Below are positions 23,135 through 48,154 of a stretch of 48,154 nt of DNA, piece by piece (the first letter of the stretch is position 1; every line of letters starts with the position of its first letter). Origin of the DNA: a virus; the IMG/VR virus record IMGVR_UViG_3300027852_000052, positions 1 through 48,154 of that record; one strand, written 5' to 3'. A program made the translations under genes and the position numbers. The notes under the pieces are model-generated. The model did not search any database. It was not told the origin of the DNA and saw only the letters and a list, made by a program, of their open reading frames with translations.

Positions 23135-25480
23135 TTATGTCTTTATTGGTAAACCATCTTTCCATGCCCAATCAACAGTTTTCATTTCTAACCAGTTCTT
23201 GCCCACTTTAAAGTCCACATCAACACAAAACTCTTCTCTGTTAATAGTCAAAGGTTGTATCATTGATTTTCTAATCTTAATAATACAATCCTCAACCTTG
23301 TCATCATCTGCGTAGACATACATTGCATCATGTAACTGCAACGCTACTGTATAGTCACTTCCATACCGCTCATAAAATCTCACAATAGAACTATTTAAGA
23401 GATCTCCAATGGTACTCTGTGGTTTATATGCATATGCCGATCTAAACAGAGCATCTCCCCATGCATCATTAAATCTACGCTTTCTTCCTAAACATGTTGT
23501 AAGAACCTTTGATCTTCTCAACTCCTCTTGTATCTTAGTTTGATAGAGGACTATTGCTAGATTTCTGTTTCTATATAAAAGACGAAGTTTCTTAGCCTCT
23601 GGAAGAGAGCACCCCACCTCGTTTGCAATTACACCTGGGCCAGCATCATAATTACACGCATGCCTAAGAGTCTTTCCTATACGACGCTGTTCAGATGTAA
23701 CTTGTTCATATGGAATTTGAAACAGTATGGAAGCAGTTATCCTATGAAGATCGTATTTTTTCTTTCTTTCTGTAGGTGACAACCCAAAGGATTTCTTATA
23801 CATCTCTATTAAACGCTTGTCTAATGATTCATAGGCAACAATTACGGCCTCTGCTTGGACATAATCTGCACCAACAAGAGTCTTACCTGGTAACGGTTCA
23901 AATAATATTCTTAGATCCTCTGGGATTGTCTGAAAGTTTTTTGGTCCAAATGGATCTATTATGCTTTTTGATGAACTCCATCGACCAGTATCAGTCCCAG
24001 TAATATTATATGATGTGAATACCTTTCCCTCTGGTGAAACTTCATAGTCTAAGAAGGAAGATTTCTTCTTGCTATACTTTCTGTGTTCTAACATTAGTTC
24101 AGGAACGATTGAATTCGGATGATCACAATTAGCTAGCTTCTTTAATGCTATCTTATCTGTAGTTAATTTTCTTTCCTCCTTTACTGACTTTCTACGTTTA
24201 AACTGTGGAGGTAATTCCATCTGAATGTACAATAAATCTTTCACCTGTTTTGGACTATTATAATTTATCTCCTTTCCTGACAATAGTTTTAGACTCTTAC
24301 TAGCTTCAGCAATCTTTTCGTTGCACATAGTCAGAATCTCTTTTTGCTTGTCAGTATTAAATATTACCCCATTCAAATTCAGCATTATAACAGGCTCTAA
24401 TTGAGACATTTCTAGTTCATATGTATCCCTAACACCGAATTCTGTAATAATTCTTTCTAAAACTGGTACAAGTGCTCTAGTATTTGCAGCATCAGCAGCA
24501 TTATAAATGCCCATATCATCCTTTGCTGTATGCTTCCAAGATGGTACATCTAAACATATAGATGAGACAAAACCCAGACTCTTCGGAAGCTCTGTCCAAC
24601 AACAATGTGCCGCAAGCATAGTATCCATGTAAATATGTCTTGTTGGAATAGAATACCTTTTCCACATTACAGCTACATCATAAGCTGCATTATGATACAC
24701 CATTGGACAGTATCTGAGCACCTTAGCAAGACCTTGTAATATTTTGACCTCATCGCTTTCAGTGTATCTTGGATAACTGCCCCGTAGTATTTCGATAGAC
24801 ATGGCAAAATTGGCATCATTAGATAGACCAAACCATGTTGGATATGCCTGAATTGTCTCTAAATCAAGTGCACATATTTCTCTTCTTAAAGAGACCTCAT
24901 CACAAAAATTTACCCATTCATCTACTGTTGGATTTGTTATTAATGTTCTGTTGTCTTCTGGTATTTCAGGAAATGCTGAGTGTCTCAGCGCTTTTCTGAG
25001 GTCTAACACTGTAACATAAAACAGATTTCTTGTGTAATTCACAGCTTGTGGGTGATATGTAGATAAAACCTTTTGTCCTGAGACAAGAGTACTCTCTGTT
25101 ATAGCACCTCTGTAAGCCTTAATACCAGAATTTTCAGTCAAGGCCCAGTTTGCTATTGCACCTAAGGCTACCACAATGTTAGGTTCATGCAGTATTATCT
25201 CGGTCTGTAGCAAGTCTATCCACTCTTGCATTTCAGGTGTTGGAATCGTATGTTTCTTGTCTACGAAATACAAGTCTATATTATTATCTTTGGGCTGTAG
25301 TCTAGCTACATTAGCTATAAGACATTTACCTCTTGCGATGCCAGCCTGTGAAAGTAATCTATCTAGAGTTCTTCCAGCCTTGCCCACAAAGGGTTCTCCA
25401 CGAGCACTTTCCTCCTCTCCAGGAGCTTCGCCTACCAGCATTATCTTGGCATTTGCTGGCCCTATTGTTTTAACAAACAT
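23135..25480 (-). CDS. DNA polymerase A with N-terminal UDG-like and exonuclease domains
   Basis: 781 residues. Residues 1-165 are a family-4-like uracil-DNA glycosylase fold: GEAPG at 17-21, ARGEPFVGKAG (26-36), HP at 143-144; the usual iron-sulphur cysteine pair is absent. Residues ~200-345 are a 3'-5' exonuclease with DLE (206-208), HNAAYD (263-268) and YNAAD (326-330). Residues ~360-781 are a family A polymerase: TGRWSS (498-503), motif A ADYVQAE (538-544), motif B RRIGKTLRHACNY (599-611), motif C LHDAMYV (716-722). Motif C has HDA where HDE is usual. It is the phage replicase. The glycosylase part could act on uracil-containing DNA or be structural, as in phage SPO1. Confidence 0.9.
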   Translation of the reverse strand: MFVKTIGPANAKIMLVGEAPGEEESARGEPFVGKAGRTLDRLLSQAGIARGKCLIANVARLQPKDNNIDLYFVDKKHTIPTPEMQEWIDLLQTEIILHEPNIVVALGAIANWALTENSGIKAYRGAITESTLVSGQKVLSTYHPQAVNYTRNLFYVTVLDLRKALRHSAFPEIPEDNRTLITNPTVDEWVNFCDEVSLRREICALDLETIQAYPTWFGLSNDANFAMSIEILRGSYPRYTESDEVKILQGLAKVLRYCPMVYHNAAYDVAVMWKRYSIPTRHIYMDTMLAAHCCWTELPKSLGFVSSICLDVPSWKHTAKDDMGIYNAADAANTRALVPVLERIITEFGVRDTYELEMSQLEPVIMLNLNGVIFNTDKQKEILTMCNEKIAEASKSLKLLSGKEINYNSPKQVKDLLYIQMELPPQFKRRKSVKEERKLTTDKIALKKLANCDHPNSIVPELMLEHRKYSKKKSSFLDYEVSPEGKVFTSYNITGTDTGRWSSSKSIIDPFGPKNFQTIPEDLRILFEPLPGKTLVGADYVQAEAVIVAYESLDKRLIEMYKKSFGLSPTERKKKYDLHRITASILFQIPYEQVTSEQRRIGKTLRHACNYDAGPGVIANEVGCSLPEAKKLRLLYRNRNLAIVLYQTKIQEELRRSKVLTTCLGRKRRFNDAWGDALFRSAYAYKPQSTIGDLLNSSIVRFYERYGSDYTVALQLHDAMYVYADDDKVEDCIIKIRKSMIQPLTINREEFCVDVDFKVGKNWLEMKTVDWAWKDGLPIKT

Positions 25481-36204: not shown

Positions 36205-36459
36205 TTATTGATGTGTAAACTTTTTTGCCAGCCTTGAACGGATACTTCCATAAGAGCGCCTGTGGTTATCTGCAATTTGTTGTATCGCTGCTTGAACCTC
36301 TCTGGTAAACATATAATCTTCAGAAGCATCCCAACACAGGCCAGCCCTGCAATCATCTGCCACCTCTTTGGTTTTCTGTCTCACTTTCTCCTCGTCGAAA
36401 ACGATGTTCTTTCTTATCCTGCTGTCAATTGCGTTGTTTAGAAAGTCTTTCTCCGTCAG
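36205..36459 (-). pseudogene. Small gene with non-standard start or 1-base slip
   Basis: A coherent 84-codon frame (KDFLNNAIDSRIRKNIVF, then EVADDCRAGLCWDASEDYMF) begins with CTG at 36459, overlapping the upstream stop as CTGA, and ends at TAA 36205-36207. The only well-placed ATG (36475, AAGGAGG 6 bases before) is out of frame by one base in AAAA (36460-36463). Either a CTG start, GTG at 36384, or a 1-base insertion explains this. Confidence 0.55.
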
Positions 36460-37379: not shown

Positions 37380-37730
37380 TTAATATGGTTTGTTTTCCTT
37401 GCGAAATATCCTCCATTTTGACTCAAAACTGTGTGCTGGAGTCTTTCGCTGTACGTACTCACCTGATTTGCTTAATTTTGTATCTCTGGAAAATCCTCTA
37501 ACTCACCTCCTCTCAATAGACTCTAAAAACCCTTCTGTAAACAGTCTACATTTTTGCCCAGACCGGACAAAGTAATACTTTCCATCGTCTCATGTGGAAA
37601 TAAGTATCCCATGATATTTATGTGCTAGTTTAATTGTATGAGTTTCAACTGAGCATGGATATGAGGAGTCTAAATCAGTAGATGTTGGTGAGAATAATAA
37701 GCACAGGAATATTACTATTAAGGCTTTCAT
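37380..37730 (-). pseudogene. Exported small protein gene interrupted by two in-frame TGA codons
   Basis: From ATG 37730 (ATGA overlap with the gene upstream) a frame of 117 codons runs to TAA 37380-37382 with TGA at 37590-37592 and 37503-37505 only. Part 1 (46 aa) has a signal peptide (ALIVIFLCLLFSPTS). Part 2 (28 aa; DDGKYYFVRSGQKCRLFTEG) and part 3 (40 aa; KLSKSGEYVQRKTPAHSFES) look coding but have no start codons. Reading TGA as Trp gives a sensible 116-residue exported protein. Confidence 0.55.
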
Positions 37731-37864
37731 CTGCTCCCTTCTTTCATTTGATTTCTTTGTTTCTCCAAACAGCTAGCACAAATTGGGTTTTGTATTCCCT
37801 CTGGATGTAGTAAATACCACCCAACAGAAGGTGTCCAATAATCATCACAAATCTTGCAGATCAT
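37727..37864 (-). CDS. Small zinc-knuckle protein (45 aa)
   Basis: 45 residues. CKIC (3-6) and CASC (~29-32) form a zinc site. The start and stop both overlap neighbours as ATGA, so it is coupled to both. Function unknown. Confidence 0.65.
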   Translation of the reverse strand: MICKICDDYWTPSVGWYLLHPEGIQNPICASCLEKQRNQMKEGSR

Positions 37865-38037
37865 TTCTTATCCTCCCTCTCATAAATCCATCTAAAGACT
37901 TTAGTATGTAGGTGTTTATATTCTTGTTTCTCTGGAAAATCTCCTGACTTCTCTAAAACTATAATAAGACTAGAAAGACCTTTTTCTAAAATTTCCTTCT
38001 CTCTTACTGTAAAACTCATTCTTTCTTTGCGAACCAT
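37861..38037 (-). CDS. Small helical protein (58 aa)
   Basis: 58 residues with GGAGG 9 bases before ATG 38037. Helical with basic start (VRKERMSFTVREKEILEKGL) and mixed end. The stop overlaps the next start as ATGA. The layout resembles short phage proteins with helix-loop-helix form; function unknown. Confidence 0.65.
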   Translation of the reverse strand: MVRKERMSFTVREKEILEKGLSSLIIVLEKSGDFPEKQEYKHLHTKVFRWIYEREDKK

Positions 38038-38052
38038 GTTTCTTTGCCTCCT

Positions 38053-38265
38053 TTAGTCTAGTCTGCAGTTCTCTGACAGAACATAATCTTTTACTTTTTC
38101 CCAGCTTTGCAAACTCCAGACACCATAAGGACATCCCTGTCCCTTCAGTGCCTCAATAGATCTGTCAATATCCTGCTTTAGAATTAAGGCTTTGACTCTG
38201 TCCCCATTCAAAGCATCGTAAACCAACATCATGTGTGTCTGGTCTTGTTCTAAATAGCCTATCAT
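38053..38265 (-). CDS. Unknown early protein (70 aa)
   Basis: 70 residues, alpha/beta (HMMLVYDALNGDRVKALIL, then YGVWSLQSWEKVKDYV). AGGAGG-like site (AAAGGAGGTAAA) before ATG 38265. Function unknown. Confidence 0.55.
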   Translation of the reverse strand: MIGYLEQDQTHMMLVYDALNGDRVKALILKQDIDRSIEALKGQGCPYGVWSLQSWEKVKDYVLSENCRLD

Positions 38266-38279
38266 TTTACCTCCTTTTG

Positions 38280-38483
38280 TTAATCCTCTAACTGGATTAA
38301 TATACCATTCTTACATATTCCAGAGGCATACCATCGGTGTGGTTTAGGGTAATGTGGGCCTTCAAGTGATACAGGGCCGTCCTTTAAAGGAAACGGGCCG
38401 GGAGAAAAGACAGTGATTTTCTCTCCTACATGAAAGTCCGCTTTCAACGCTTTCTTTGTCTTATAGTTCGGTGAGACATACAT
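38280..38483 (-). CDS. Unknown early protein (67 aa)
   Basis: 67 residues from ATG 38483, preceded by AAAGGGG 8 bases upstream; an in-frame ATG 16 codons earlier lies within the preceding gene and lacks a site. Beta-rich (KADFHVGEKITVFSPGPF, RWYASGICKNGILIQLED), possibly an SH3-like fold. Start overlaps the stop upstream (TAATG). Confidence 0.6.
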   Translation of the reverse strand: MYVSPNYKTKKALKADFHVGEKITVFSPGPFPLKDGPVSLEGPHYPKPHRWYASGICKNGILIQLED

Positions 38484-38635
38484 TATATTATCCCCTTTAT
38501 CTGCTTCTCTAGCTCCAGTTTCCTGAAACATCTTCTACAGGTTAGCACATCAACCATTACCTTACAGGTAGTCAACAGGTTGCAATGCACACAAAATGTT
38601 GTCTTTTTTTCCTTTACTTCATCCCAATTTTTCAT
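38483..38635 (-). CDS. Small zinc-ribbon protein (50 aa)
   Basis: 50 residues. CVHC (15-18), a single Cys (~24) and CRRC (~33-36) are suited to one zinc ion. AAAGGAG before ATG 38635. Charged helix at the end (KLELEKQIKG). One of several tiny zinc proteins in this region. Confidence 0.7.
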   Translation of the reverse strand: MKNWDEVKEKKTTFCVHCNLLTTCKVMVDVLTCRRCFRKLELEKQIKGII

Positions 38636-38798
38636 CTTTTTCTCCTTTTCTTGGTGTTAAAGAACTAATAGAGAGAATATCGTCACGTTCTGCTGCATCT
38701 AAATTGTACATGTCTTTGTGCCATATATCCTCATAACGCAACAGAAGATATTGGTATGTTGTGGGATGTTTTGATTTTATGTAATCTTCTACGGTCAT
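38619..38798 (-). CDS. Small early protein (59 aa), intact copy of a tandem pair
   Basis: 59 residues with AAAGGAGG 5 bases before ATG 38798, directly behind the promoter at 38833-38861. TVEDYIKSKHPTTYQYLLLR, then EDIWHKDMYNLDAAERDDIL. It is paralogous to the interrupted gene at 38885-39079, in which the W of EDIW is a TGA codon. Function unknown. Confidence 0.7.
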   Translation of the reverse strand: MTVEDYIKSKHPTTYQYLLLRYEDIWHKDMYNLDAAERDDILSISSLTPRKGEKDEKLG

Positions 38799-38832
38799 TT
38801 TTCACCTCCTTTCCTTCATTACTTATGTTTTC

Positions 38833-38861
38833 ATTATACCCTAAAAAGATTCTTATGTCAA
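38833..38861 (-). promoter_or_regulatory. Consensus sigma70-type promoter
   Basis: On the - strand TTGACA (38856-38861), 17-base spacer, TATAAT (38833-38838): a perfect consensus in both hexamers and spacing. The -35 lies in a 23-base stretch repeated exactly at 39148-39170. Confidence 0.9.
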
Positions 38862-38884
38862 GTTATATCTTATCTTAGATAAAC

Positions 38885-39079
38885 TTAGTTTATATACTTA
38901 GTTTTCTTTTTAGAGCAGGCAGTCTCTAGAAAGAGTATATCTTTAAAATCTTTATCATCTAGTCTACAAAGAGAGTCATATCATATATCCTCAAAATAGA
39001 CATTATATATAAAATGATATATGTCATAATGATTTGTTTTTACATATTCACGTACTGTAATCCTGTCCTTGCTTGTCAT
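38885..39079 (-). pseudogene. Tandem paralogue with TGA at a conserved Trp position
   Basis: ATG 39079 (AGGAG 9 bases before) opens a 64-residue frame ending at TAA 38885-38887, with one internal TGA at 38981-38983 (codon 33). Around it FEDI-TGA-YDSL corresponds to YEDI-W-HKDM in the paralogue at 38619-38798, and flanks (TVREYVKTNH; KDFKDILFL) align as well. It has its own promoter at 39130-39158. Mutation of TGG to TGA, or readthrough as Trp, are both possible. Confidence 0.65.
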
Positions 39080-39129: not shown

Positions 39130-39158
39130 ATTGTAGCATAAAATGTGTCTTATGTCAA
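39130..39158 (-). promoter_or_regulatory. Sigma70-type promoter
   Basis: On the - strand TTGACA (39153-39158), 17-base spacer, TACAAT (39130-39135). Shares its upstream and -35 sequence exactly with the promoter at 38833-38861, and drives the paralogous small gene. Confidence 0.85.
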
Positions 39159-39210
39159 GTTATATCTTATTCCAAACATGGTTACTCTATACTCCCGTAG
39201 GGGAGAAGGG

Positions 39211-39221
39211 TCGAATTTCGA
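39211..39221. promoter_or_regulatory. Dyad box 6 (TCG-W5-CGA), origin left flank
   Basis: Perfect core TCGAATTTCGA followed by TATTTT. It lies 9 bases from the first iteron cluster. Confidence 0.7.
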
Positions 39222-39229
39222 TATTTTGT

Positions 39230-39287
39230 TGTACGAATGTACAAATGTACACTTGTGTACTTGTACGATAGTACATGAATGTGTACG
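39230..39287. repeat. Iteron cluster A, 8-bp units TGTACNAA
   Basis: Consecutive 8-base units TGTACGAA, TGTACAAA, TGTACACT, TGTGTACT, TGTACGAT, AGTACATG, then a last GTAC. Seven GTAC tetramers occur in 56 bases, where about one per 256 is expected. Such phased short repeats are typical binding arrays for an initiator or partition protein. There is no open reading frame here with a ribosome site. Confidence 0.75.
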
Positions 39288-39329
39288 AAGTTCCAGCAGC
39301 CCCCCTTCCCATTTCTCCGATGTTTATCC

Positions 39330-39412
39330 CTTTTCTCTTGTCTCTTCTCTCTTGTCTCTTCTCTTATATTAATAATATATTATTATATATATAATAAAAA
39401 AATATATAAAAA
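39330..39412. other. Pyrimidine repeat and AT-rich tract (candidate unwinding element)
   Basis: A tandem 14-base repeat TCTCTTGTCTCTTC (twice) runs into a tract from about 39364 to 39412 consisting almost only of A and T (TATTAATAATATATTATTA and onwards). It lies between iteron clusters. This is the arrangement of a DNA-unwinding element at a replication origin; function is inferred. Confidence 0.55.
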
Positions 39413-39495
39413 AGAAAGGATAAAAGGAAAAGGATGGAAAAGGGGGGGATAAAGATCGAAAGGGAGAGGGTAAAAAAGGGGGGTCTCCAGGATGC

Positions 39496-39622
39496 GTTCA
39501 CGTTCACGTACAAACGTACAAATAAAAAATTTTTTTCAAGCCTGTTTTGGGTTTGCTGAAAGTGACGTTCAAACGTGCAAAATAAGGGCTTGTACAATCG
39601 AACAACCGTACAACCGCACAAA
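39496..39622. repeat. Iteron cluster B, 8-bp units YGTNCAAA
   Basis: Three subgroups: CGTTCA, CGTTCA, CGTACAAA, CGTACAAA (39496-39521); CGTTCAAA, CGTGCAAA (39566-39581); and TGTACAAT, CGAACAAC, CGTACAAC, CGCACAAA (39591-39622). The 8-base period matches cluster A. No gene is seen in the + or - strand here that has a start and ribosome site. Confidence 0.75.
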
Positions 39623-41706: not shown

Positions 41707-43161
41707 GTGAGCGCATCTAAGTTAGATCCAAGGATACTTCGTAGAATTGGAAGGTGGAAGAATAATCCACTTCTGTGTGTATCTGATACAATTGATGTGG
41801 ATTTAACTGATCAGCAGATAGATGCGTTACATGCAATATCAAACGGTAAACGTGTAACCATTAGATCTGGCCATGGTTGCGGTAAAGATGGCATAGCTGC
41901 AATAATTGCTTGGTGGTTTATGTGCTCCCGTGCATATGCTAAGACAGCCGTCACAGCTCCTACACATAGACAGTTGCATGATATTTTCAGGACTGAGCTT
42001 TCTAAATGGTTTAGGAAAAGTACCTTGCAGGATGAGTTTGTAATGCAAAAGGATATTGTCTTTCATAAGAGTGCTCCCAAAGAGTGGTGGCTAAGGTATA
42101 TCTCCCCACAAGTTAGAGCGACTAAAGATGAGCAGGCTGAAACACTTGCGGGTCTGCATGGGGATCATCTCCTTCTAATTGTGGATGAGGCAAGTGGTGT
42201 GCCAGATCCAATGTTTATACCGCTTGAGGGGGCACTTACACAAGAAGATAATAGAGTTTTGCTAATTGGGAATATGACAAAGAACACAGGGTATTTTCAC
42301 GACACACATTTTCACGCAAAGGTTTCTCCGAACTGGACTAAGTTACACTGGGATTCAAGAGATTCAAGTCTTGTCACTGATGATATGGTACAGTTTTTTA
42401 AGGATAAGTATGGAGAAGAGTCCTCTATATTTGCTGTTCGTGTAAAGGGTGACCCTCCACATGAGGATGAGAGGACTTTAATTCCGTTAGGATGGGCGCG
42501 ACAGTGCCTTGGAAATGAATTTCCTATTGCTGAGGATGAGCCTAAATATCTTGGTGTGGACGTTGCCAGGTACGGTGAGGATAAGTCCATTATAATGCCT
42601 AGAATGGGGCTTAAAATATTTCCATGGAAAACCTTTCAGGGCCTTAATACTATATCACTGGGAGGTTTTATAAACCAATGTTATATAGAGGAAGAGGCTG
42701 ATGGTCTTGCTATTGATGAGATTGGTGTTGGCGCCGGTGTGACTGATTGGTTATATAAGCATGGACATATTAACTGTTTTGGTATAAATGTAGCAGAAGC
42801 CTCTTCGAATATTGCGGAGTATAATAGGCTTAGAGACGAACTATGGGTTCTTGTACGAGAGAAGTGCATGAAGGGTGTGTACAACTTTCCAGAGACTGAT
42901 GAAGGAGAAGAGCTTTGTAATGAGCTTGCTTGTCCAACTTATGATTTTAATGCAAGTGGTGGATATGTCATAGAGAGTAAGAAGAGTATGAAACTGCGTG
43001 GTGTAATGTCACCAAATATAGCAGATGCTTTATGTCTTACAGAGTACTTTTCTGGGGACGCACATAGGATATGGAAGAAGCAAGAAGCAAAGAGAAGCAA
43101 AACAAATTATTACAATGATAACTACGATGCGCCTATGAAGGGTGCATGGCAGGTAGCATAA
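41707..43161 (+). CDS. terL: Terminase large subunit
   Basis: 484 residues from GTG 41707. ATPase part: RSGHGCGKD at 53-61 (Walker A, with Asp where Ser/Thr usually follows GK), TAPTHRQL (~83-90), Walker B LLLIVDEAS with D160-E161, coupling motif LLIGNMT (~185-191). Nuclease part: GVDVARYGEDKS with D285, AIDEIGVGAG with D337, NIADAL with D440. This protein cuts and drives DNA into the prohead through the portal encoded at 45241. The length fits. The GKD variant is odd for a Walker A. Confidence 0.9.
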   Translation: MSASKLDPRILRRIGRWKNNPLLCVSDTIDVDLTDQQIDALHAISNGKRVTIRSGHGCGKDGIAAIIAWWFMCSRAYAKTAVTAPTHRQLHDIFRTELSKWFRKSTLQDEFVMQKDIVFHKSAPKEWWLRYISPQVRATKDEQAETLAGLHGDHLLLIVDEASGVPDPMFIPLEGALTQEDNRVLLIGNMTKNTGYFHDTHFHAKVSPNWTKLHWDSRDSSLVTDDMVQFFKDKYGEESSIFAVRVKGDPPHEDERTLIPLGWARQCLGNEFPIAEDEPKYLGVDVARYGEDKSIIMPRMGLKIFPWKTFQGLNTISLGGFINQCYIEEEADGLAIDEIGVGAGVTDWLYKHGHINCFGINVAEASSNIAEYNRLRDELWVLVREKCMKGVYNFPETDEGEELCNELACPTYDFNASGGYVIESKKSMKLRGVMSPNIADALCLTEYFSGDAHRIWKKQEAKRSKTNYYNDNYDAPMKGAWQVA

Positions 43162-44845: not shown

Positions 44846-45244
44846 ATGACAATAGATGAATGGAATGAATTATCATGGTTTACTCCTTATGAGAATTGGG
44901 GGGAGCCAGAAAAGATGTCCTTTGAGTTGCTTGTAAAACTGGATACTTTTAGAGACCACATAGGACATAGAGTAATTGTGCATTGTGGATATGCTACAGA
45001 AGGCCATACTGATAACAGCATGCATTATGTTGGTCAGGGAGTAGATGTTCATGTGGTTGGTGTGTCACTTGTAGAAGCTTGGCTAGAATGTGAAAGGTTT
45101 GATTTTGGTGGAATAGGTCTTTATCCTAATTGGGAGAATCCTGGTCTTCATCTTGATGTTCGGTACGCAAGGCCGGGCGCTAGGTGGATTTACACAGACA
45201 AGTTTAAGGAACTTAATGTTTCAAACTTAGAGGGTTTACTGTGA
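44846..45244 (+). CDS. Peptidase M15-type endolysin candidate
   Basis: 132 residues. SMHYVGQGVDVHVVG (~53-67) and LHLDVR (~103-108) match the zinc-binding HxxxxxxD and HxD motifs of M15A peptidases (His55, Asp62, His104). HRVIVHCGYATEGH (~42-51) precedes them, as in the family. It would cut peptide cross-links in murein. No signal peptide, so it needs the holin-like protein. The stop overlaps the portal start (GTGA). Confidence 0.75.
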   Translation: MTIDEWNELSWFTPYENWGEPEKMSFELLVKLDTFRDHIGHRVIVHCGYATEGHTDNSMHYVGQGVDVHVVGVSLVEAWLECERFDFGGIGLYPNWENPGLHLDVRYARPGARWIYTDKFKELNVSNLEGLL

Positions 45245-47106
45245 ATATAGCAGAAGATAGAATAATGATTAAGCCAGATGGAACCCCGCTTCTTGCAGAC
45301 GGCAGGGATATTTTAGGGTCTTTGCAGGAGTGGTTAAGGGACGATGAGAATAGTATTCCTGAGACTAATTGGCGAACATATGCTACTGTAGACTACGATA
45401 TGTATGCAGGACAACAGGATACAGTAGAAGTTCTACGAGAACTTGAGAGACTGAAGAGACCTAGTACTGTCTTTAATGAGATTAAACCAAAGATTGATAG
45501 GGTTGTAGGTCTTGGGGATCAGGTTAGACGGGTTCCTGAGGCCATACCTGTTGGGTTTGAAGACGAACCCTTAGTAGAGCTTACTAATGGCGCATTAAAA
45601 CACTTTCGTAGGACACAAAGGTTGTCTGATAAGGAGATGGAGTGTTTTGAGCACACAATAAAGAGCGGACGTTCTTATATGTATTTTCATGTTAATAAAG
45701 AGAATCCGTTTAAACCTAAAATTATGGCAAAGAGGTATCATGGCAGGGACATAGTAATAGATCCAGATTCTGTTGAGTATGACCTAAGTGATGCTAGAAG
45801 AGTGCATTTGTTTAAATGGTTTCATGAAGATGATATAAAAGTATACTGGCCAAAGTTTAGTGAGACCTTTTCCTTGTTTAGTAGAGAGTCTGCTGGTCAG
45901 ATGCTGCCGAGCTATTTTGATCCGGCTACTAAAAAGTATAGAATTGTAGAGACGTGGTATAAAAGGTTAGAGCCGGCATTCTGGTTTATTAACCCTATTA
46001 CAGGAAATCAGGAATATCTTAAAAAGAGGATGTTTCAAAGGTTCGCTAAACAACTAAAAGCTGGCTTAAGGCTTCCTGATGGTAATGTAGCTCAGCAAGA
46101 TGAGTTAGAATACGCAGAAACTCGTATGCCCTTTTACTACGTTGCTTTGCATTCAGGTGGAATATTATTAGGACACTCACCTAGTCCGCATCGTTATAGA
46201 GGTTTTCCGCTTGTTCAGTATGGTGCGTATAAGAATGATGATGAAAATAGATGGTTTGGGTTAATCTATGTTATGAAAGACCCACAGGTATCTCTTAATA
46301 CGATGAGAAGACAACTAGCGCATTTGTTACAAACATCACCAAAGGGTCTTCTTGTTCACGAGCAGGGGGTCATTGTTAATGAAGAGGAGTATGCAACTAA
46401 TTCTTCTGAGCCTAACTTCAAGTTAGTTATTGCAAAAGGTAAGATGGACAAATGGAAGTTCTCTGACCAACCATCAATAAGTAATATTTATGGTGAGCTT
46501 GATGCAGTATTTCAGCAAAGTATGAAAGATACCTCTGGTGTTACTGATGGATTAATGGGAGTACAAACATTCTCCAGGGAGCCTGCTGAGGCTGCGCACA
46601 TGCGACAAATGGCAGGTCTGTCAGTCTTATACATACCATTAACAAACTTTAGAAAGAGTAGAATACAGGGGACTAGAATATTTCATTCATTAATGCAGCA
46701 GTATATGAGTTACGAACAAGTGATAAGAGTAGAAGGTCAGCATGGCCAACAACTTATGGAAATAAACTCTCAGATTAATCCTCAAGTAAGTGGGTTTAAT
46801 GATACGTCTGTTGGGGAATACGATATGACTATCGATGAGCAGGCTGAGAATGTAACTATGAGAAAAGGTATTGCAGAAATGCTGATGGAGTTTGGGCGAA
46901 ATAATCCTGGAAGTATTCCTCCTGAGCTTGTATTTGAGTATACCGATGCTCCATATTCCGTTAAACAGAAGATTAGGCAGTACAATGAGGCTAGGCTTGC
47001 GGAGGAGCGAGAGTTTAGAGAGATGGAGTTAAATATTGAGCTTTTAAAGGCACAGAAAGGGGGAGAGAAAAAAGAGACAAAAGTGGCGAAACCTAAAAAG
47101 GATTAA
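45241..47106 (+). CDS. Portal protein, P22-like
   Basis: 621 residues from GTG 45241, overlapping the upstream stop as GTGA. Near the N-terminus SLQEWLRDDENSIPETNWRT and YAGQQDTVE; then FNEIKPKIDRVVGLGDQVRR (~80-99), FEHTIKSGRSYMYFHV (~135-150) and PKIMAKRYHGRDIVIDPDSV (~160-180), all in the order of P22-type portals. The C-terminal ~60 residues are charged helix (REFREMELNIELLKAQKG). It forms the ring at the packaging vertex. The length is near that of P22 gp1 minus its barrel extension. Confidence 0.85.
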   Translation: MNIAEDRIMIKPDGTPLLADGRDILGSLQEWLRDDENSIPETNWRTYATVDYDMYAGQQDTVEVLRELERLKRPSTVFNEIKPKIDRVVGLGDQVRRVPEAIPVGFEDEPLVELTNGALKHFRRTQRLSDKEMECFEHTIKSGRSYMYFHVNKENPFKPKIMAKRYHGRDIVIDPDSVEYDLSDARRVHLFKWFHEDDIKVYWPKFSETFSLFSRESAGQMLPSYFDPATKKYRIVETWYKRLEPAFWFINPITGNQEYLKKRMFQRFAKQLKAGLRLPDGNVAQQDELEYAETRMPFYYVALHSGGILLGHSPSPHRYRGFPLVQYGAYKNDDENRWFGLIYVMKDPQVSLNTMRRQLAHLLQTSPKGLLVHEQGVIVNEEEYATNSSEPNFKLVIAKGKMDKWKFSDQPSISNIYGELDAVFQQSMKDTSGVTDGLMGVQTFSREPAEAAHMRQMAGLSVLYIPLTNFRKSRIQGTRIFHSLMQQYMSYEQVIRVEGQHGQQLMEINSQINPQVSGFNDTSVGEYDMTIDEQAENVTMRKGIAEMLMEFGRNNPGSIPPELVFEYTDAPYSVKQKIRQYNEARLAEEREFREMELNIELLKAQKGGEKKETKVAKPKKD

Positions 47107-47134
47107 CATTTTTATAAAGAAAGGATGAAATTTT

Positions 47135-47953
47135 ATGGTAGATGCATTAGTAAATTTAGATGACGACGGAAAGGTAATAGATATTGATCCTGACGTAAAG
47201 TTAGATGGTGATGATGCAGATAAGGGTGATCCTACTACCGGTGATCCTTCGACTGATGGTGATGGTGACGACAAGGATTTGGATGACGATAAAGGTGGAG
47301 ACAAGGATAAAGACGGTGATCCGTCTCTTGAGGATCTCTTAGAGGCTAAAGATGCTGAAATAAGAGAACTGCGTCAGATGTCTAGAGATAACAAAAGAAA
47401 GACAGATGCGTTAGAGGTGTCGCTGGAAGAGCAGGGCAAAGCCCTTCGGGATGCTAAGATTATTGAGGAAGACCCAGAGGAGGTTGAGAAGGCCAATGCT
47501 GCAAGAGATTCACGTAATGAGTATCTAGATAATGTACTTGAGTTAATGCGTGTGAATCCTAAGTATGCAGATGTTGATGATGTGGTGTCTCAAGATAATG
47601 TTGATGATATGGTCCAGGCCTGGGCACTGGCATATCAAGAAGACAATGGTGGTAAGTTGAGTGTAATCACACGTAACATCGAGGCTGAGATTTGGGGGCA
47701 TAAGAATCCATATCGTTATTTGTATGACCTCATAAAGAAAACACATCCAACATATAATAAAGAGAAAGGGCGAAAAGTGGATATTACAAAAGATAAGGAG
47801 AATGGCCAACCATCATTAGAGGATATTCCTGGAGGTGGTGGTAGTGATAATGTTGGATGGACTGCAGCCAGAATTGATGGACTCGACGAGGAAGAACTTA
47901 ACACGGTTCCTGCTGATGTGTATAATAGATATTTGCGGAATCAGTTAAAGTAG
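47135..47953 (+). CDS. Scaffold-like acidic capsid assembly protein (right copy)
   Basis: 272 residues. Same ends as the copy at 81-887, but the linker at residues ~20-60 carries four extra residues and many Asp substitutions, and K/D changes occur near the C-terminus. The start is preceded by AAAGGA as in the left copy. It sits directly after the complete portal gene and so is the copy in native context. Confidence 0.65.
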   Translation: MVDALVNLDDDGKVIDIDPDVKLDGDDADKGDPTTGDPSTDGDGDDKDLDDDKGGDKDKDGDPSLEDLLEAKDAEIRELRQMSRDNKRKTDALEVSLEEQGKALRDAKIIEEDPEEVEKANAARDSRNEYLDNVLELMRVNPKYADVDDVVSQDNVDDMVQAWALAYQEDNGGKLSVITRNIEAEIWGHKNPYRYLYDLIKKTHPTYNKEKGRKVDITKDKENGQPSLEDIPGGGGSDNVGWTAARIDGLDEEELNTVPADVYNRYLRNQLK

Positions 47954-47967
47954 GAGGTTAAGGGAAA

Positions 47968-48154
47968 ATGGCAGAAACAATATTTTTAACAAATGATGCT
48001 CTCACTCGAAAAAAGTGGGCTAGAGATCTGTTCAAGATTCTGCTTCCTGCGACAGAGATAAACAGTCTTGTAGGAAGATCGACTGAGGATATTATTCAGC
48101 TTAGAACAGAACTAGGGAAAGGAGAAGGTGATCAGATAAAATTTGGTATCAGGC
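47968..48154 (+). CDS. Major capsid protein, N-terminal part only (window edge)
   Basis: The first 62 codons of the capsid gene, cut by the window end. The protein is nearly identical to the start of 902-1960, apart from one residue near codon 38 (Ala to Thr) among several silent changes. Confidence 0.8.
   Translation, partial: MAETIFLTNDALTRKKWARDLFKILLPATEINSLVGRSTEDIIQLRTELGKGEGDQIKFGIR

Follow-up and report, generated by a model that had tools for sequence, protein, structure and literature searches.

Genomic setting of the small-gene region

The window analysed here is the whole stretch of a 48,154-base IMG/VR virus record, which derives from an uncultured tailed phage. Genes for the terminase, the portal protein and an N4 gp56-like major capsid protein were located at 41707-43161, 45241-47106 and 902-1960, respectively, and that for the DNA polymerase at 23135-25480. 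The product of the latter is DNA polymerase I-like with an N-terminal family-4 uracil-DNA glycosylase-like domain, and is a candidate fusion; it matched NCBIfam TIGR00758 at residues 4-163, below the curated cut-off. Two frames interrupted by TGA, here called A (37380-37730) and B (38885-39079), both lie within a leftward run of small genes. In the same part of the genome, the intergenic stretch 39220-39620 is rich in (T)GTAC motifs and carries an AT-rich palindrome (39351-39426), possibly representing an origin or operator. An ORF of 59 aa with a GTG start (36205-36384, minus strand) resembles by eye a small helix-turn-helix protein and had no match in PHROGs.

The three in-frame TGA codons which a sequence-only reading had placed at 37590-37592, 37503-37505 and 38981-38983 are all present on the minus strand. 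The two frames had been described as neighbours and are in fact separated by six genes (37727-38798). The exclusion of global recoding was borne out, as TGA terminates 18 of the 63 predicted genes and tryptophan is encoded by TGG 210 times in 68 predicted genes. Phages with recoded stops (code 4 or 15) likewise display in-frame stops inside apparent genes; unlike them, this phage terminates normally at TGA and uses TGG for tryptophan throughout. A suppressor tRNA, for which a search of the phage had been proposed, was not found, the window containing no tRNA or tmRNA. With TGA as a usual terminator and no such tRNA, a phage in which TGA is reassigned to tryptophan was ruled out.

The two ends of the contig overlap: positions 1-1086 (1.09 kb) are repeated in the last 1.1 kb (47055-48152) with 92.8% identity. 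The overlap contains 67 differences (55 transitions and 12 transversions), and 43 of the 66 coding differences fall at third codon positions. The gene order (portal end, next gene, capsid start) is that expected at the join of a closed genome, and the genome is essentially closed. Since the overlap is about 93% identical and differs mostly by third-position transitions, two strains coexist in the sample; judged from these sequences the two contig ends most likely derive from different ones, so that any single-base state, these TGAs included, may be the allele of one strain.

Homologues of A or B were not found in IMG/VR, INPHARED, PHROGs, Pfam or NCBIfam, and 26 related records gave no convincing homologue of the B family. 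Searches of viral, phage and sampled genome collections likewise gave no relative of A or B in which conservation of a TGA or of the downstream frame could be seen. A single match to A among 291 genomes (E=1.4e-4) lay inside a 299-aa frame and was judged on inspection to be due to chance, while weak matches to A in phage 201phi2-1 were antisense to an annotated gene. Among the terminase relatives (the best 80 of 250 viral loci plus four genome loci), none was listed above 67% identity, and only one of those listed, L020, showed nearby synteny, with two nearby genes in order. Its set of small genes differs, and neither A nor B was found in it, as would be expected of dispensable genes; the cassette of small genes seems to undergo rapid turnover, in agreement with this view. 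Repeated GTTACAAGATATG-like units were observed at 7320-7450 of L020, upstream of its small genes.

Frame B and its intact paralogue

Frame B (38885-39079, minus strand) is a duplicated small gene with one in-frame TGA, which reads as 32 codons, TGA, 31 codons and TAA. Its product would be of 32 aa if terminated at the TGA and of 64 aa if read through. The intact copy (P0001; 38619-38798, minus strand) encodes a protein of 59 aa, predicted to be all-helical in a structure model of low confidence (pLDDT 63). The two proteins are 30-32% identical over an alignment of nearly full length, and in comparison to shuffles their similarity has P=2e-4 before the TGA and P=0.029 after it. As the sequence-only reading had stated, the TGA of B (38981-38983, minus strand) occupies the position of a TGG in the paralogue, within the same E-D-I-W context; this is the only tryptophan of the paralogue. 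Directly before the site is a shared 12-nt stretch, TGAGGATATATG, which is identical in both copies.

In the intact copy, a stop could arise by a single transition in only three ways, two of which affect that tryptophan codon. The second part of B is stop-free (P=0.004 against shuffles) with a codon score at P=0.027. Together with the protein similarity, these values place the observation in B beyond chance. The differences between B and the intact copy at the three codon positions (16/13/18 after the stop and 9/8/12 before it) are too few and too saturated to serve as a measure of relaxed selection after the stop.

Tandem duplication is also evident upstream of the genes. A 23-nt block, ATAAGATATAACTTGACATAAGA, is identical at both copies, is found nowhere else in the window, and contains the -35 hexamer of two near-consensus sigma-70 promoters located 297 nt apart. 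The putative promoter of the intact copy (38833-38873, minus strand) consists of the block with TTGACA-17-TATAAT (12/12 matches to the consensus), and that of copy B (39130-39170, minus strand) of the block with TTGACA-17-TACAAT (11/12). B retains a strong predicted promoter together with a Shine-Dalgarno-like site, which counts against reading it as a dead copy.

Based on these sequence comparisons B is a real tandem paralogue of 38619-38798, and its TGA is a true nonsense codon that differs from TGG by one G-to-A transition. The similarity on both sides of the TGA, its position on the only tryptophan and the few transitions available indicate that B was most likely once a full-length gene and the TGA a one-step nonsense change. 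As the downstream half is still gene-like, the change must be of recent date unless the frame continues to be used.

Frame A

Frame A was confirmed to comprise 117 codons, the final TAA included, with only two internal stops, both TGA, located after codons 46 and 75. The second and third parts, claimed to be without start codons, contain no in-frame ATG, GTG or TTG. Part one (37590-37730, minus strand) encodes a 46-aa protein with a signal-peptide-like N terminus and ends at TGA1 (37590-37592). It is followed by the 28 open codons of part two (37506-37589, minus strand), which may represent the C-terminal half of an ancestral protein of 75 aa. TGA2 (37503-37505, minus strand) is embedded in AGGAGGTGA and probably represents either a natural stop or a junction formed by recombination. 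The 40 open codons of part three (37383-37502, minus strand) probably do not encode a continuation of A.

For parts two and three, the open frame has P=0.106 and P=0.135, and the codon score P=0.24 and P=0.19, respectively. Beyond two TAA-terminated genes in the window, the frame stays open in intergenic DNA for a further 44 and 30 codons, so the open runs of A are not special, and the observation in A is not clearly beyond chance.

Part three contains a 36-nt patch (37469-37503), beginning at the last base of TGA2, which resembles 37913-37949 in gene 37861-38037. Its score was 35 (shuffle P=0.001), while none of 206 other minus-strand windows scored above 26. The reading frame of this similarity differs from that of frame A, which makes it improbable that part three is the natural C terminus. 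An opposite indication comes from a weak similarity to this gene that is in frame (P=0.0085). The registers of the two alignments differ, and one of them at least must be due to chance. The resemblance of 37469-37503 to 37913-37949 could represent a recombination scar.

There is a hint, no more, that parts one and two once formed a single secreted protein of 75 aa. Past the signal-like segment there is one cysteine on either side of TGA1, and a model of the two parts with the TGA read as tryptophan contains a beta-hairpin spanning TGA1, at low confidence (pLDDT 53).

Interpretation of the three TGA codons

That all three stops are TGA has a probability of about 0.03 from the local stop composition, calculated post hoc. 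The three are not one phenomenon and do not form a set, because TGA2 of A is more readily accounted for by a natural gene end or a recombination junction. The sequence-only reading had left localised readthrough, recent mutation and assembly error as options; a recent nonsense mutation or strain variant stood up for B, while readthrough gained little. We consider it probable that B is a pseudogenised duplicate or a strain allele, that TGA2 is a natural stop or junction, and that termination is normal at all three codons. Tandem duplication of a promoter plus gene in a leftward operon would have yielded B, and a TGG-to-TGA transition at the conserved tryptophan, presumably at the level of a strain, would have left it truncated or dead in the assembled haplotype. 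The product of B would then be non-functional and the intact copy downstream would supply the function. In gene A, remnant DNA would follow TGA2, and TGA1 would be either where the gene naturally ends or another nonsense mutation of the ordinary kind.

The duplicated block with its promoters, the similarity on both sides of the TGA and the transition-rich strain differences support this explanation, and two marks of a pseudogenised tandem duplicate are found, namely a homologous intact tandem copy and a disabling change relative to it. B resembles nonsense-interrupted duplicates among phage pseudogenes in its tandem intact paralogue, the single-transition stop at a shared codon and the variable accessory region; unlike these, it is too young, or is read through, for a second disabling change to be present. 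In-frame stops are reported to be widespread in prokaryotic genes, where many are short-lived, and to be over-represented in the mobilome category (PMC7918605); like these transient stops, that of B is single in a gene otherwise open. What counts against the decay of a duplicate is that each of the three stops is TGA, which in E. coli is leakier than the other stop codons (PMC11126739).

The open and gene-like second part of B fits a very recent mutation and fits readthrough equally. Localised opal readthrough, in which the tRNA-Trp of the host would occasionally decode UGA in B, and likewise at TGA1 of A, to give a short and a long form of each small protein, seems quite unlikely. Tryptophan is the usual insert at leaky UGA in E. 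coli, which agrees with the position of the TGA in B; in the same organism termination is more efficient when T follows the stop and less so with G (PMC11126739). By this rule from E. coli, both stops of A have the leakier context (G), whereas that of B is followed by T, the context of efficient termination. The low-confidence hairpin across TGA1 also speaks for readthrough. Against it, no structure downstream of the stops was clearly stronger than in shuffles (z -0.54 for B; -0.82 and +0.72 for the others), no Rfam element was matched in the window, the phage has no tRNA of its own, no relative was found that could show a conserved TGA, and an intact paralogue is present. The Q-beta coat/A1 protein is a case of UGA readthrough, and B is like it in having an in-frame UGA after a short product at a position compatible with tryptophan. 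It differs in being a non-structural gene with T after the UGA and an intact paralogue next door.

An assembly or sequencing error, or a consensus of mixed strains, such that no real phage genome has TGA there, is unlikely. At least two strain haplotypes were joined, as judged from the 1.1-kb overlap of the ends at 93% identity, but strain mixing mostly gives true alleles of some strain, and an isolated G-to-A error in the consensus should be a rare event. It is very unlikely that the short forms represent the actual genes, with B having evolved as 32 aa and A as 46 aa with open codons downstream by chance. The near-chance statistics of A and the similar open runs after TAA stops would fit this for A, whereas for B the paralogue similarity past the TGA (P=0.029) and the stop-free second part (P=0.004) argue against it.

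If readthrough were true, it would mean UGA-dosed expression in the early genes of a DNA phage. That UGA at tryptophan in one duplicate, together with TGA1, lets the readthrough efficiency of the host determine, early in infection, how much of the short form is made relative to the long one is highly improbable. Under the reading preferred here, routine decay of a duplicated accessory gene, the TGAs are of little consequence, and they serve as a caution that apparent recoding can come from mixed-strain assemblies.
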